Shown: positions 22,394 to 30,900 of the stretch, in pieces | How the letters are laid out: every line of letters starts with the position of its first letter | How positions within the stretch are numbered: position 1 is the stretch's first letter | Virus record (IMG/VR): IMGVR_UViG_3300004369_000019 | Coordinates: 1 to 55,604 of that record | DNA from: a virus | Strand: one strand, 5' to 3' | Length of the DNA: 55,604 nucleotides | Translations under genes and position numbers: made by a program | Notes under the pieces: generated by a model | Told to the model about the DNA's origin: nothing | Databases searched by the model: none | What the model saw: only the letters and a program-made list of their open reading frames with translations

Positions 22394-23845
22394 CTATGGT
22401 CTTCCAAAAGGATTAATTTCACTAAAATCTAAAATATCATCTGCTTCGGATTCTATTTCAGAATTAGAAGCGAATGGATTTGGTATATTCAATGAATCTG
22501 CTATTGAATTTGGAGTTGCTTTATGTCTAGCTCCTGATTCTTCTCCGATAAATTCATCATAAATGTTAAACTCTCCAGTTAATCTGTAAAGTTGCAACTC
22601 ATTAGTTGTAGAATTCCAATATTTAACAACACCTGTAGTAGAACTGCTAGATCCAACAACAGTTTCTCCTATTTTATAATTACCAGACCCATTTAAATAT
22701 GGGTCTTCAATAGTTATCGTTGGGGGATTTGTTGTAGCATATCCAGCTCCAGCATCAAGTATTTGAATCGATGTAATTGTACCTAATCCACTTACAACAG
22801 CTTCGGCAATTGCTGTTGTACCAGATCCTGTAGGAGCACTAAATGTTATAGTTGGAAGTCCGGAATATCCACTTCCACTATCTGTTACTGTGATAATTCC
22901 AACAACTCCAGCTGTAGTAGATGCTGTTGCTACAAATCCAGACCCATCACCACCACCAATTGCTTGTATTAGAGGATCTGATGTATATCCATATCCAGTA
23001 TTAGTTAATCTAACTCCCTGAATCCTAGATTTATCGTCATTAGTATTGCAATAATCTACAATTCCAGAAATCATAGTTGCTACACCCACAGCAGTATATC
23101 CTGTTCCTGCGGGAGCTGAAGAAAATACAATATCTGGAGTAGAAGAATATCCATTTCCTCTATTTGTAATAGTAATATATCTAACACCACCATTAAAAAC
23201 AGTTGCTACGGCAGAAGCAGTAGATCCTACACCAAGCATGGTATAAGATCTAGATCCTGATGTAAGACCTCCAATACCAAGAGACGAAGATCCTGCTACA
23301 GAAGAATCTCCGAGAATAGCAGCATCTATAGTTTCTACATCAGTATCAATAATTTCATCACCATAACGGAATAATTCACATCTTAATTCATAAACATAAT
23401 TTTTTTGTAACTGATAAAATGGCTTCTCATGTTCAACAAATTTAATTTCAAATATTCTTCCACCCAAAGGAAAATAAATTAAATCTCCTTCTTTAGGTCT
23501 TTTTGATAATTTAATATTACTCTTATTTTCGATTAGAGGTTTAATATATTCTTCATAACGTTCTTTTGAAATGATAAGAGTTAAATCATCTTGCGATTGA
23601 ATACCAAATTTACTCATTATTTCGCCAGAACCTTCATATCCTTCACTAGTATCTACATATGCTTCAATAGGATATGCATCTCTAAATTCAGAATCTACTA
23701 CTTCTCTTATAACGGTTTTTTCATTTACATATAATCTTGGAATGTAGTAAACATCCACTCCATACATCCGAAGTTGCTCATTGACTAAATCTTGAATCAG
23801 ATTTTGTTCTGATTTTGATCCTTGTAGAAAAAATGGATTGAGCAT
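22394..23845 (-). CDS. gp14: Neck protein gp14 with inserted GxGY repeats
   Basis: 483 residues, nearly twice T4 gp14 (256). Residues 1-180 are the conserved neck part: MLNPFFLQGSKSEQNLIQDL, VDVYYIPRLYVNE, LIYFPLGGRIFEIKFVEHEK, PFYQLQKNYVYELRCELFRY. Residues about 205-375 are four repeats with the core [VI]T[ND]xGxGYxxxP (NRGNGYSSTP, NTGYGYTSDP, DSGSGYSGLP, DAGAGYATTN). The gp14-like C-terminus resumes near IYDEFIGEESGARHKATPNS. The repeat block is an insertion relative to T4 and would decorate the neck surface. It follows gp13 with a 6-nt gap. Confidence 0.88.
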   Translation of the reverse strand: MLNPFFLQGSKSEQNLIQDLVNEQLRMYGVDVYYIPRLYVNEKTVIREVVDSEFRDAYPIEAYVDTSEGYEGSGEIMSKFGIQSQDDLTLIISKERYEEYIKPLIENKSNIKLSKRPKEGDLIYFPLGGRIFEIKFVEHEKPFYQLQKNYVYELRCELFRYGDEIIDTDVETIDAAILGDSSVAGSSSLGIGGLTSGSRSYTMLGVGSTASAVATVFNGGVRYITITNRGNGYSSTPDIVFSSAPAGTGYTAVGVATMISGIVDYCNTNDDKSRIQGVRLTNTGYGYTSDPLIQAIGGGDGSGFVATASTTAGVVGIITVTDSGSGYSGLPTITFSAPTGSGTTAIAEAVVSGLGTITSIQILDAGAGYATTNPPTITIEDPYLNGSGNYKIGETVVGSSSSTTGVVKYWNSTTNELQLYRLTGEFNIYDEFIGEESGARHKATPNSIADSLNIPNPFASNSEIESEADDILDFSEINPFGRP

Positions 23846-25128: not shown

Positions 25129-27633
25129 TTACGCAAGAGCTATAACTCGTAAGTCTCTCATTCTAACAGGATAAGTAGTATCTTCTGTAGTAGCAACTAA
25201 TTTTATTCCAAATGCTTTGAATGATGGTAGTTTATTAATTGAGAACTTAAACTCTTTGTATGTTAAATCTTCAGGTTTAAATCCAATAGAGTCTGTTAGT
25301 TTTACTTTTTTATCAGTTGTTCCATCACTTTTAGAAATATCAATTACTTCTCCCCTTTCATTCAAGTTTGCATACCCTGGGAAAGGATAATAAATCATTT
25401 CCTCTTTAGCTTCATCAGATATAGAGTAAAAAGCTCTTATATCACTTTTTGTGTTAACATATGCAGTCAAGAAAACTTGAATAGAAGTAGCAGGAGTTTC
25501 TAAAGCAATTGGTCTTGTAGCATAAACAAAAGCATGTGGATCGTTTTCTAAATCAGATGTTCTTTCATCTGTAATATAATCATCTATTGGTTTATTCATT
25601 CTATTTCCAATTAAAATGACCGAGCAACGATCCAAATCAATTACAGGAGAAAGAGTAGGAGTAGTTGTAGTTAAATTGACTGAAAGATTTAAAGACTTAT
25701 TTCCTTCAATTCCTTCAACTCCATCTAATAATTCTGTTTCATTAATTCTTGAACATATTATTCTTGGAGAACTGAGATATGTTTCTTCTGTTGTCGAGAT
25801 AGTTTCAAATTCAGTAGCAAGGAAAGATTCTTGATTACCACCAACACTTCTTCCAGTAATAGACCTCAAATTAATTTCAATATCAGTTCCAGTGAGTTCC
25901 GCAACTTTAATTTCTGGGTCAATAATTTCATATTGAATATTTTGTGTAGCATTTATATCATCTCCACCAGAAGACTTAGTTTCCCTAATAAACAAATCTG
26001 GATATCCGTCAATATTATTTGATCTATCAACTCCAGATTCTTGCATATCTATTTTTATATGATAGTAATCCAAATCTATTGGATTATCTACAGTTGCATC
26101 TTGCAATTCATGGGTCTTATTCAATCTTCTTAAAGAAATACCATTACATTCATACTTTACAACATCAACTCCTTTTTCATATTCAGATCCTTTAGTTCCA
26201 TCAACTTCTCTAATAATTCCTGTTAAAGTATTGCTACTAATTCCTGTATATCCAATAATTTCTTCTTCAATTTCAATATATCCTGGATTTGTAGAAGAAA
26301 CACCTACGTTTTCAAAAGTTGCAAATACGCTAAGTCCAGTTGTTTCATTAATTAACATATTCTCCAATTGAATTGGAGCCGTTGAATCTTCTAGAACATC
26401 AGCAGCCAAATCTACACTTGGATGATCAGCATCTACATCAGCGATAGTAACTACATTTTCCTCAGCATACATCCCATGATTGGGATGATTTACTTTTATG
26501 TGAAGTCCATCATGTATAATTGTAGAATCTGTTGTAAGCACACCACCACCATTCAAGGCTGTTACTATTCCACTAGAATTTTCATATTGAATAGTAGTTC
26601 CAGCACCAGTTAAGAATAATCCTTGAATATCATCTACTATGATTTCATTAATGTTTCCTAATTCGGAAACAGTAAGTCTTAAATTTCTACCTAAACCTGT
26701 TCCAACAGTATTTGCGGTTACGAGATCGCCAACTGCAAATCCAGTTCCACCATCAACAATAGTTGCTCCTACAGCAACACCATTTTGAATGGTTAAATTG
26801 CATGTAGCATTTTTTCCTAGTCCAGTAACTTTAGTTAATGGTACATCAAAATAAGTTAATCCGCCAGCAGAGGGAGTATATCCAATTCCAGCATTAAAAA
26901 TTGTTAATGAAGAAGCAGCTCCAGCATTTCCAATATAGTTACCAGCAGCATCACTACTACCTTGTTGAGAAACTGTAACTCCAGTTGTAAATCCTACATC
27001 GTTTATACCGGTGCTTAAAAGTAGTCTTTCCTGACGCGATTCAAACTCAAATGCATCTCCATCTAAAATAGCAATTTGTTGGTTTCCTAAATCAAGTTCT
27101 GGATTGTAAAAATTTATATTTCCAGAATTTTCTTTAAAGTTTGCCCTACTAAGAGTAAATTTTAAATCTTCAGTTTCGGATGGAGTCCAAACAGCTCCAT
27201 TTTGAGATCTAAAGAAATTTCCAGAGTTTGGGTTTGCTGATACAAAAACTCTTTTAGAAGTAGCATCATTCAGTTTTGTAACATCAGTGTCTCCCATTTT
27301 TGCAACCCAGACTGAATAGTCTTTACTGTTGCAAAGTAAAACAATTGCATGAAAAGTCTCGCCTTTTAAAAAAACGGGAGATGGAAATGTAAATCTAGTC
27401 GGTCCAGCAGCATCAGGAGACACAACAATTTCCGGTGGATTTAATGTTACTGAAGAAAATGGATATATGTCTGTTGCTGAAGGAAGTCCATTTACAGTTG
27501 GTCTCAACTGCAACGTCACAGGAGACGAACTATCTCCTTCATAAAAGAAAATATCAACAGATGTAGCAAAAATCCCCTTTGGATTATCTACATAAAATGT
27601 TTGTGCTAAGGGATCAATTAAACTATTTGCCAT
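25129..27633 (-). CDS. Virion structural protein, separated DPLAQTF part of a DUF4815 protein
   Basis: 834 residues starting MANSLIDPLAQTFYVDNPKG, then GIFATSVDIFFYEGD, VTLQLRPTVNGLPS and VWVAKMGDTDVT. In the T4-like marine phages I remember, this DPLAQ(T/S)F...TSVDxFF...VNGxPS...MGDT segment is the continuation of the large DUF4815 baseplate/fibre protein, not the N-terminus of a separate one. Here it has its own ATG and an AATAAATA late motif 35 nt upstream. Residues about 240-330 hold two GxGY/GxGF repeats (NAGIGYTPS, DGGTGFAVG). Role: baseplate periphery or fibre attachment, by position between gp8 and gp13. Confidence 0.8.
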   Translation of the reverse strand: MANSLIDPLAQTFYVDNPKGIFATSVDIFFYEGDSSSPVTLQLRPTVNGLPSATDIYPFSSVTLNPPEIVVSPDAAGPTRFTFPSPVFLKGETFHAIVLLCNSKDYSVWVAKMGDTDVTKLNDATSKRVFVSANPNSGNFFRSQNGAVWTPSETEDLKFTLSRANFKENSGNINFYNPELDLGNQQIAILDGDAFEFESRQERLLLSTGINDVGFTTGVTVSQQGSSDAAGNYIGNAGAASSLTIFNAGIGYTPSAGGLTYFDVPLTKVTGLGKNATCNLTIQNGVAVGATIVDGGTGFAVGDLVTANTVGTGLGRNLRLTVSELGNINEIIVDDIQGLFLTGAGTTIQYENSSGIVTALNGGGVLTTDSTIIHDGLHIKVNHPNHGMYAEENVVTIADVDADHPSVDLAADVLEDSTAPIQLENMLINETTGLSVFATFENVGVSSTNPGYIEIEEEIIGYTGISSNTLTGIIREVDGTKGSEYEKGVDVVKYECNGISLRRLNKTHELQDATVDNPIDLDYYHIKIDMQESGVDRSNNIDGYPDLFIRETKSSGGDDINATQNIQYEIIDPEIKVAELTGTDIEINLRSITGRSVGGNQESFLATEFETISTTEETYLSSPRIICSRINETELLDGVEGIEGNKSLNLSVNLTTTTPTLSPVIDLDRCSVILIGNRMNKPIDDYITDERTSDLENDPHAFVYATRPIALETPATSIQVFLTAYVNTKSDIRAFYSISDEAKEEMIYYPFPGYANLNERGEVIDISKSDGTTDKKVKLTDSIGFKPEDLTYKEFKFSINKLPSFKAFGIKLVATTEDTTYPVRMRDLRVIALA

Positions 27634-27667: not shown

Positions 27668-27919
27668 TTATTTATTCTTTAAAGTATCTATTTCTTTTTT
27701 TAACTCTTTTATACACTCAACCAAAACCGGTATCATCTGTATATAATCAACAGACAAATACCCATCTTCCTCATAAACCATCTCTGGAAATTCTTTTTTA
27801 ACTTCTTGGGCTATGAGTCCGTGCTCATAGCCCTTTCTTCCATGATATTTTACCATTTTATCATCCCACTCATAAAACATACCATTCAATTTACACACTT
27901 TATTCAAAGAAGAAGTCAT
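27668..27919 (-). CDS. Orphan C-terminal part of an S74 chaperone domain
   Basis: 83 residues from the ATG at 27919; a TTG at 27931 would give 87 residues and a TTGA overlap with the previous stop. The sequence is the body of a peptidase S74 domain: SLNKVCKLNGMFYEWDD, GLIAQEVKKEFPEMVYEEDG, YLSVDYIQMIPVLVECIKEL. It lacks the opening Ser-Asp-x-x-Leu-Lys, which instead ends the preceding 2233-residue ORF. CTAAATA lies 25 nt upstream of the ATG, but no clear SD is present. It may be made as a separate chaperone fragment, or be the broken tail of a former single gene. The domain identity is firm; expression is uncertain. Confidence 0.75.
   Translation of the reverse strand: MTSSLNKVCKLNGMFYEWDDKMVKYHGRKGYEHGLIAQEVKKEFPEMVYEEDGYLSVDYIQMIPVLVECIKELKKEIDTLKNK
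27669..27676 (-). promoter_or_regulatory. Late promoter motif AATAAATA for the 834-residue gene
   Basis: AATAAATA, 35 nt before the ATG at 27633, overlapping the end of the S74 fragment. Confidence 0.68.
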
Positions 27920-27972
27920 AATATAATTCAAATTCTAATCAATCTATTTAGTGCATTTCTAATAATCATAAT
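27916..27972. repeat. 7-nt direct repeat bounding a 50-nt insertion in the S74 region
   Basis: TCATAAT on the plus strand occurs at 27916-27922 and 27966-27972, exactly 50 nt apart. The intervening DNA holds the stop of the 2233-residue ORF and the CTAAATA motif. Removing one copy plus the intervening segment joins the two S74 fragments in frame. 50 is not a multiple of three, which explains the frame change. Confidence 0.85.
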
Positions 27973-30900
27973 GTTTGTCTTCAGTAAGAAGTCAGACCTT
28001 CTTCCTCTTCTTCCACCTCCTCTTTCACCTCCTCTTCTAGCAGGTCTACCTCCCGGACGTGGTGGACGTGGAGCAGGTCTTGGTCTAGGTCTTGGTGCAG
28101 GTCTTGGTGGATAACCACTTCCTAATGCTCTTCTCCTATTTGCGCTTGGTGCTGGACTTGGTGCTGGTCTTGGACGTGTTCTCCGTCTTGGTGGTGTTGG
28201 TCTTGGATGATACTTCTTAATACTTCCTCTCTTAAGTGGAAGTTTATTGATGGGGAATCCTTCTCCTTTCTTCTCAAATTTCTTCTCACCACGCTTGGTA
28301 ACTTTCTTAGATGCCTTTGGATGCTGTGTAGCAATTAGAGTTGCTCCATACTTCCACAATTGAGGTTCACCCTTATTGTAGAATCCATAATCTTTATCCT
28401 CTGGTTTAATTATATCAATTCTATTACTCTTCACACCCTTCTTCTGAAGTTTTCTTGCCTTCTTAGTGGTATCAATTATAACCATTTCGCCATTTCTCTT
28501 TTGACGAACTGCAATTGAAGTTGTCTTTTTTTTACCTCCTATTGGTCTTGCAGGTTTTCCTCTACCAGGATACTTCTTAGGGGGAAGTGGATATCCTTCT
28601 GCTTTAAATGCTTTCTTAGCGTCTTTGTTTCCTCCTCTTTCCCTAATCTGGTCAAAAGTTAAATATCTAGTTTTACCTTTGTTTTTACCTTTTTTAATTG
28701 TATAAGGAACATACCAAACAGGAAGTGCTTTTCCTTTCTTATCAAAGACGTATTTAACTTTAGCAGTTTTAATCTTTGGTCTAGGTCTCTTGCCTGAAGG
28801 CGGTGTAGGTTGAGGATCTCCTGTAGGATTCCCTTTGTTAGGGAGATTCACTGGAGGAAACGGGTCTTCGTGGGGTTTTGGCTCCTCCGGTGGTGGTGGT
28901 GGTGGTGGTTTCCTCTTGTTGTGAGAAAGTAGACCTTCTGAAATATAAGTATGAGCACCTTCAACTGTGATATGAACAACTGGTCCATTTTCAACAGTTT
29001 CAATACTCTTCAATGTTTGTCCAGAAACTTCATCACCGACTTCCATGTCTCTGGCTTCTTTCCAAGAGTCACCAACACGGAACTTGTGGTAAATTGAACA
29101 AGTTATTTCACTTTCACTAAAGATTAACTTGAGTTTTTCAACATCTTCTACAATAGAAGCATGAATGACTGGATAATCGCCATATTCAAAAGTATCTTCA
29201 TGATATGTTTTGACCATATCACCGACTACCAGATCTCCTGCTCTCTTCTGAGAACCATCGTGCATTAAAATTAATGCATTAGGATCTGGACATACCACCG
29301 GGGGTCGTGGGCGAATCGGGTCACCGCCGCCATCGGGACCTGGATCAATAGGATCAGGTTCTGGAACAACTGGATATTGTGGTCTTTGAGGTTGTGGACC
29401 TGGTGGTTGTGGTCTCGGTCTTGGTCTAGGTCTTGTAGGCTGAGTGGGTACGCCTGGTCCTCTTGGTCCTGGACGAGGACGTGGATCTGGTTCTGGTCTT
29501 GGTGGTTTTGGTTTTTTCTTAGTACACTTGAGAAGAACTTTTGGATCACCAACTTCAGCGATAGGAAGTAAAGTACATTTCCGACTCTTAGGAATTTTCC
29601 ATCTTCTAACATAGAATCTTTTCGCAACATCACTACCAACGCAAGTAAATTGATCTTCTGCTGCGGTTGTTATTTCACCTTCTCTTTCACTATTAGTTGG
29701 TGAGTCAACTAATCTAAAAGTTTTAACTCCAGCCGTAAATGTACGCCCAAATTTATTCTTTCTTACACCATCTGCCTTTGGTAGGAAGAAGTTTCCTCTT
29801 AATTGACCATTTTCGTCAGTAACAAATTTTTTATTAACAATTTTACATATTGCTTTACTTGTCTGACCCTTTAACTTCATTCCAGCGCCAGTAATAAATC
29901 CCCAATACTTTCCTTTAGACTGTAAAGTCATGATAAAAGTATCAATATTCAATATTGTAGAATTTGATGCGTAACTAGTAGGCATCAAAGTCTGACTATA
30001 TGGATTTACCCTATAGAATTTTGTTGGTGCATTAAAAGGTCCATCCAGATGATTTATCTTACATACTCTAGAAGAAAATCTAGTATGATGTCTCCAGCCT
30101 CTTATGGCCTTCATTTGAACTTTTCTTTTTCTTACTTTAATTGCAAGTGTATTATGGACTCTAAATCTTCTTCTCTTAGCAGCAATAACTGTTTCCCCAA
30201 CTTGGAAAGTTCCCTTAACCATTTGTATTTCTAATAGTTTGGGGAAAGAAGTATTTGATACTGGAATATCATCAAAGAAAGGATATACCCTTGTAAAGGG
30301 TTTCATTTTGACGGCTCTAAATTCAATATTCCGCATTCTCATCCATTTGCGGAAAGTTACAGATACAAATCTTGCGCCAACTTTTACTCTCTTAGCCCAG
30401 AATGGGTTTTTAATCGGAACTGCACCTATTCCATCTTTATTAATTTTAATTTTTCTCTGCCCAAATATTCTTTTTCTTAATCTCTTTCTATCACCTTTTC
30501 TGTTTGGTCGATCTCCTTTAACTTTATCGCCTCTTCTATCTGGAACACCTTTCCAATGATTTCTCCAATCTCTCCAAGTAACTCCACCCCAACCCCAATT
30601 GGGGTTGTTTTTCATTTTCCTCATTTGTCGATTGGTAAACCAGTATTTACCTCTTCTATTATTAAATCCTACACAACCACCTCTATTTTGTTGAACCCAT
30701 GCATCGGTTTCTGGTTGAAGCGTAAGTTCTCCCTGATAAAATATATCGACAATAGTATTAATTGGAACGTTCTGTGTTGCATATGGTTGTACAATTTCAA
30801 CTTGCTCATCATAGTCTAATGTGATTACTCTTCCAGTTTTTCTAACACCTTCACCAATTAAATTAGAATCATATTCTGGATCCAAATTAACAGAATCTAC

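Follow-up and report, generated by a model that had tools for sequence, protein, structure and literature searches.

An S74/ICA chaperone domain is divided between two neighbouring genes in a virus record of 55,604 bases with T4-like baseplate, connector and tail genes (the whole stretch analysed, here called the window). Domains of this family are described as intramolecular chaperones, borne on the protein that is folded and then cut off. Here, as in every other pair found, domain and substrate are not joined in one polypeptide, so the locus is a variant of S74 rather than an ordinary member. That the two-gene arrangement is conserved and old is nearly certain. We consider it likely, with a probability of about 0.75, that the product of the small gene, ORF2, acts as an S74 chaperone, assembling in trans on a C-terminal tag of the large virion protein, ORF1, and cleaving the tag off. 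The broader proposal, that this is a naturally split, self-cleaving trans chaperone whose tag and body form a portable module for unrelated virion proteins and whose promoter lies in the tag codons, is one that we favour with less assurance.

Table 1. Features of the split S74 locus in the window
Feature	Position	Strand	Description or evidence
ORF1, 2233 aa	27928..34629	minus	N-terminal part of VrlC/DUF4815, linker and S74 tag
ORF1 residues 1 to ~1668			VrlC/DUF4815: PF16075 (Pfam), phrog_358 positions 1-1383, tblastn against cyanophage VrlC
ORF1 after the VrlC part			variable low-complexity linker, then S74 opening as C-terminal tag
S74 opening (tag) SDFLLKTNIMIIRNALNRLIRI, ORF1 residues 2212-2233	27931..27996	minus
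Tag catalytic Ser; Lys	27994-27996; 27979-27981	minus	dyad assigned from PMC8326128
ORF1 stop codon TGA	27928-27930	minus
ORF2, 83 aa	27668..27919	minus	S74/ICA body with its own helix 1 and C-terminal coiled-coil helix
Separate 834-aa ORF	25129..27633	minus	VrlC C-terminal part, phrog_358 positions 1421-2055
CTAAATA in tag codons Leu16-Asn17	27945..27951	minus	putative late promoter, 25 nt before ORF2 ATG
7-nt repeat ATTATGA	27966-27972 and 27916-27922	minus	judged incidental; TCATAAT on the plus strand
Hint/intein-like domain, ORF1 residues 1780-1904	28918..29292	minus	sub-threshold Pfam match to Intein_splicing (weak, E 0.006)

The two halves of the domain and their conservation

On the minus strand ORF1 ends in ...GRRSDFLLKTNIMIIRNALNRLIRI*, and the sequence-only reading was right that this protein closes with the opening of an S74 domain and that the small downstream ORF supplies the remainder. 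It had counted 12 residues after that opening as extra; they are the ordinary S74 continuation (xxIxNALxxLxxI). ORF2 matches PF13884 (Peptidase_S74) from model position 14 to the end of the model at position 58 (Pfam, E 2e-7). Its ATG at 27919, giving 83 aa, opens 8 nt past the ORF1 TGA; with a TTG start at 27931 it would have 87 aa. Sequence alignments place helix 1 in both halves, which overlap by about 8-11 residues.

A sequence search of the PDB gave no S74 match, whereas Foldseek, applied to an AlphaFold model of ORF2 (pLDDT 90.6, from an alignment of 41 sequences), returned solved ICA structures as its best matches, the closest being MyRF (7dc3, TM 0.88). Superposition on MyRF residues 598-695 gave Z 8.4 with an rmsd of 1.8 over 83 residues, compared with Z 7.2 for endoNF (3gw6) and Z 5.8 for the GA-1 neck appendage (3gud). 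The model has the elements of the S74/ICA body, namely helix 1, the strands, the helices and a long C-terminal helix resembling the trimerising helix of MyRF, and ORF2 alone is thus predicted to form a complete S74/ICA fold that lacks only the cleavage-site strand. In MyRF and endoNF a Ser and the Lys at +5 form the catalytic dyad (S587/K592 and S911/K916, respectively); cleavage in MyRF takes place immediately before the Ser and requires trimerisation, which is driven mainly by the C-terminal coiled coil (PMC8326128). The split locus shares with these three proteins the body fold and the Ser-Lys spacing. It differs from them in having two genes, with dyad and body on different polypeptides and helix 1 in both: the complete dyad is on the ORF1 product and none is on the body.

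Profile searches, combined with a script that sought the S74 opening in the same or another frame, yielded 35 distinct tag/body pairs from the window and IMG/VR contigs, and all 35 are split. In each, a virion protein ends in SDxxLKxNI... followed by a stop, and a separate ORF with the rest of the domain starts within 17 nt; the Ser-Asp opening with Lys at +5 is on the first product and not on the second in every case. An initial protein search had already found eight contigs with bodies 77-81% identical and a ninth whose body is 56% identical; stop and start are arranged alike in all of them. Since the tag pattern demanded SD, a basic residue (K or R) at position 6, and one of I, L or V at position 9, the residues at positions 1 and 2 and the residue classes at 6 and 9 were fixed by the search; the independent fact is that no body lacks such a tag, an SD...K/R tag adjoining every body with readable upstream DNA. 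Left out of the 35 were L193, which has a tag and no ATG in the tested range, L185, at a contig edge, and L008/L220, a single contig with a one-base variant of L004 that shortens ORF2. This contig (L008:4001-4219) otherwise matches L004 but has one base more, which gives an ORF2 of 70 aa and is either a sequencing error or a recent mutation.

The split bodies form a single clade, with 100/99 support and in all bootstrap trees, when placed with 32 fused S74 domains that include the window's own 731-aa fibre. No fused member was found inside this clade, and the S74 domains examined outside it are fused. Among 80 matches in bacterial genomes none is split (76 fused, four unclear), and opening and body share one frame, with no split, in the sequenced phages KVP40, S-8S53, DSL-LC03, Roth68, S-SSM7, P-SSM2 and S-SRM01, in two single-cell marine viruses and in Aeromonas phage TS3. 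When two split bodies were searched against phage records the best matches were less than 50% identical, not every lower match being inspected. The bearers of the split domain are a group of uncultured T4-like aquatic phages. A partial survey of the literature, by titles and the openings of abstracts, found no description of a split S74 domain.

Tag and body are both under purifying selection: dN/dS for ORF2 is 0.05-0.14 in the pairs that allowed the calculation, and in the tag dN falls well short of dS. All 35 tags retain the catalytic Ser and Lys, with both TCN and AGY codons in use for the Ser. When the distinct tags are tabulated, S1, D2, L5, K6, N8 and I9 are invariant and positions 3, 4, 7, 10 and 11 vary. 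The ORF1 linker ahead of the tag is hypervariable and of low complexity, with a length of 426-1971 nt.

A promoter motif within the tag

All seven occurrences of CTAAATA on the coding strand of the window precede a gene start, at a distance of 22-53 nt (P 2e-12). The motif resembles the cyanophage late promoter motif NATAAATA (PMC2984593), and its placement is that of a T4-type late promoter. The copy in the tag lies at the distance from the ORF2 ATG that the sequence-only reading had given, and the late-promoter call made there is supported and further strengthened by conservation at the level of codons. CTAAATA is found 19-25 nt before the body ATG in 30 of the 35 pairs and is missing in five; in L034 it has been lost from the usual place and a copy is present four codons later, and in L042 it sits in a different peptide context. 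Leu16 of the tag is encoded by CTA in 29 of 34 tags, against 12% of Leu codons in the window, whereas Leu5 uses six synonymous codons; the heptamer is thus conserved at the DNA level. The embedded promoter may be part of the reason why NALNR is nearly invariant in the tag, which would make this an instance of protein sequence apparently being constrained by a promoter.

Measured from the end of the ORF1 stop, the body ATG of the 35 pairs falls anywhere from 17 nt upstream to 8 nt downstream. This proximity of stop and start suggests translational coupling; no strong ribosome-binding site is obvious before ORF2. A separate promoter would permit an excess of chaperone over substrate, and a free body could act repeatedly.

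Proposed assembly in trans and its alternatives

A mechanism can be proposed on the model of the fused domains. As a tag of 22-30 residues, the virion protein (in the window, the N-terminal half of VrlC) would keep the cleavage-site strand, the Ser-Lys dyad and helix 1, while the body would be made separately from its own late promoter, by translational coupling, or by both. ORF2 would trimerise through its C-terminal coiled-coil helix and take up three tags, the cleavage-site strand of each threading the domain, so that the docked trimer would align the low-complexity C-terminal linkers of the virion protein. Docking would then trigger a cut just before the Ser, with release of tag and chaperone. 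Docking in trans, trimerisation, cleavage and promoter activity are all inferred. That the dyad has been retained speaks for continued use of cleavage, and on balance we expect that self-cleavage has been kept.

The sequence-only reading had offered two explanations, a chaperone converted to act in trans and a recent inactivating event. Conversion to a trans chaperone is the better supported of these; that a working fused domain was recently broken by an inactivating insertion, or only seemingly so by an assembly error, we regard as practically excluded. The case for an insertion came from the 7-nt direct repeat, which does exist, with copies whose starts are 50 nt apart and 43 nt between them rather than the 50 first claimed. 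Only the closest relatives, L002-L004 and the L004 near-duplicate L008, have this repeat too, and it is absent from the corresponding site elsewhere among the split loci; 6% of random sites show a similarly spaced repeat of 7 nt or longer. Being unconserved and frequent by chance, it was rejected as an insertion scar. A recent inactivating insertion is refuted by the 35 conserved pairs, by the low dN/dS of ORF2 and by the lack of any fused relative within the clade, and selection on both halves tells against inactivation. Separate ORFs in the relatives, with fused ones only outside the clade, are what that reading had itself named as grounds for abandoning an insertion. An assembly error is ruled out too, because independent contigs show the identical arrangement. 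It is also highly improbable that the split is only apparent, with a frameshift or stop bypass joining ORF1 and ORF2 in one S74 domain. The ORFs do touch or overlap in most pairs, but the frame of ORF2 is offset from that of ORF1 by 2 in 23 pairs, by 1 in 11 and by 0 in one, and these three frame relations argue against a conserved frameshift and led us to reject fusion by this route. A joined product would moreover bear helix 1 twice, and a conserved ATG and promoter motif belong to ORF2 itself. An AlphaFold model of the L039 read-through product (pLDDT 87.3) shows the opening as one long helix without canonical docking, in a single chain, where a trimeric arrangement cannot appear.

Other alternatives accept two products and differ in what these do. 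ORF2 might dock on or cap the tag in trans with self-cleavage lost, the tag staying on the virion protein. Docking in trans needs no cleavage, but the two residues on which cleavage depends in MyRF and endoNF, Ser and Lys, are invariant across the 35 tags, and we think this unlikely. Less probable again, and in our view very unlikely, is that ORF2 serves other fibre proteins as a free chaperone and that the tag on ORF1 is a vestige. Its predicted fold is complete and the window does encode other fibres; against this, selection acts on the tag whereas the linker before it is unconserved, the S74 fibre of the window has a complete copy of the domain of its own, and tag and body are adjacent at every locus. 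Neither the window nor the fetched flanks yielded any other short SD tag that might mark a further substrate.

A chaperone that assembles in trans on the ORF1 tag and removes it would resemble in role the trans-acting tail-fibre assembly chaperones, such as T4 gp38/gp57A and the Tfa family and reportedly also the Pam3 fibre chaperone. These likewise are products of a small separate gene beside a virion substrate and aid assembly, but belong to different fold families, and we know of none with a conserved substrate tag that carries a self-cleaving dyad. As a stable natural split, the locus indicates that the S74 reaction centre and body are separable. Whether an S74 chaperone can work in trans, and whether it can do so repeatedly, becomes directly testable, and the locus offers a small pair of cleavable tag and chaperone.

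Genomic context of the split locus

The carrier of the tag in the window is itself half of a divided protein. ORF1 and the 834-aa ORF correspond to the two parts of VrlC (phrog_358, DUF4815) of cyanophages and pelagimyophages, and only jointly do they cover the whole profile of 2056 positions. In the nine annotated cyanophages examined VrlC is a single gene of ~2,510-2,625 codons, following gp8 where this is annotated, whereas here there are two genes with the S74 pair between them. Among the contigs, the VrlC parts share one frame in L130, L131, L135, L140, L141, L143-L145 and L152; VrlC is split without an S74 tag in L117, L120, L124 and L126; and in the clade of the window the S74 pair occupies the gap between the two separate VrlC parts. 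The existence of these three kinds of relative suggests that the break in VrlC came first and the chaperone was added second, a large baseplate gene having been broken where the chaperone was added.

The tag/body pair is also found behind two other proteins, one of 235 aa (L199) and one of 483 aa with a Hint domain (L042/L043). The 235-aa carrier (L199:2291-2995) matches Gp38-adhesin weakly (E 1.5e-4, short of the curated cut-off), and in its end Pfam sees S74 positions 1-23, just below cut-off. The bodies of L199 and L042/L043 nest within the split clade in the tree, so the two-gene S74 unit appears to have moved as a unit. The gene for the 235-aa protein comes after one that ends in a complete, fused S74 domain.

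The Hint domain of ORF1 (CPDPNALIL...SHN), whose Pfam score is below cut-off, has the first Cys and the His-Asn, but the residue at +1 is Lys rather than the Cys, Ser or Thr of a splicing intein; self-cleavage without splicing is possible. In close relatives the domain may be present, absent (L027) or duplicated (L025), and since it is missing from some split loci it lies outside the core split-S74 module. Fractured genes with split inteins were reportedly described from phage metagenomes by Dassa et al. in 2009. The present locus is like them in having a broken phage gene and a Hint domain in the region; it differs in that the Hint domain is whole within ORF1, is followed by a Lys and not by a nucleophile, and is not found in many split loci. 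The Hint domain of the 483-aa protein of L042, beside the split S74 of that contig, is similar to that of ORF1.

Some further features of these regions were noted. L193 has a SET-domain gene (L193:3258-3722; PF00856, E 4.5e-13) between ORF2 and the C-terminal VrlC ORF, at a place where a gap of 440-510 nt is seen in L035, L037, L038, L040 and L046. From about position 1100, L036 has, as read by eye, what appear to be the terminase and tail genes of a different type of phage and no VrlC C-terminal part; it is possibly a chimeric contig. In the window, the C-terminal part (~residues 270-410) of the head-closure protein at 22394-23845 on the minus strand matches phrog_701 and phrog_2885, which are domains of large virion structural/baseplate proteins.
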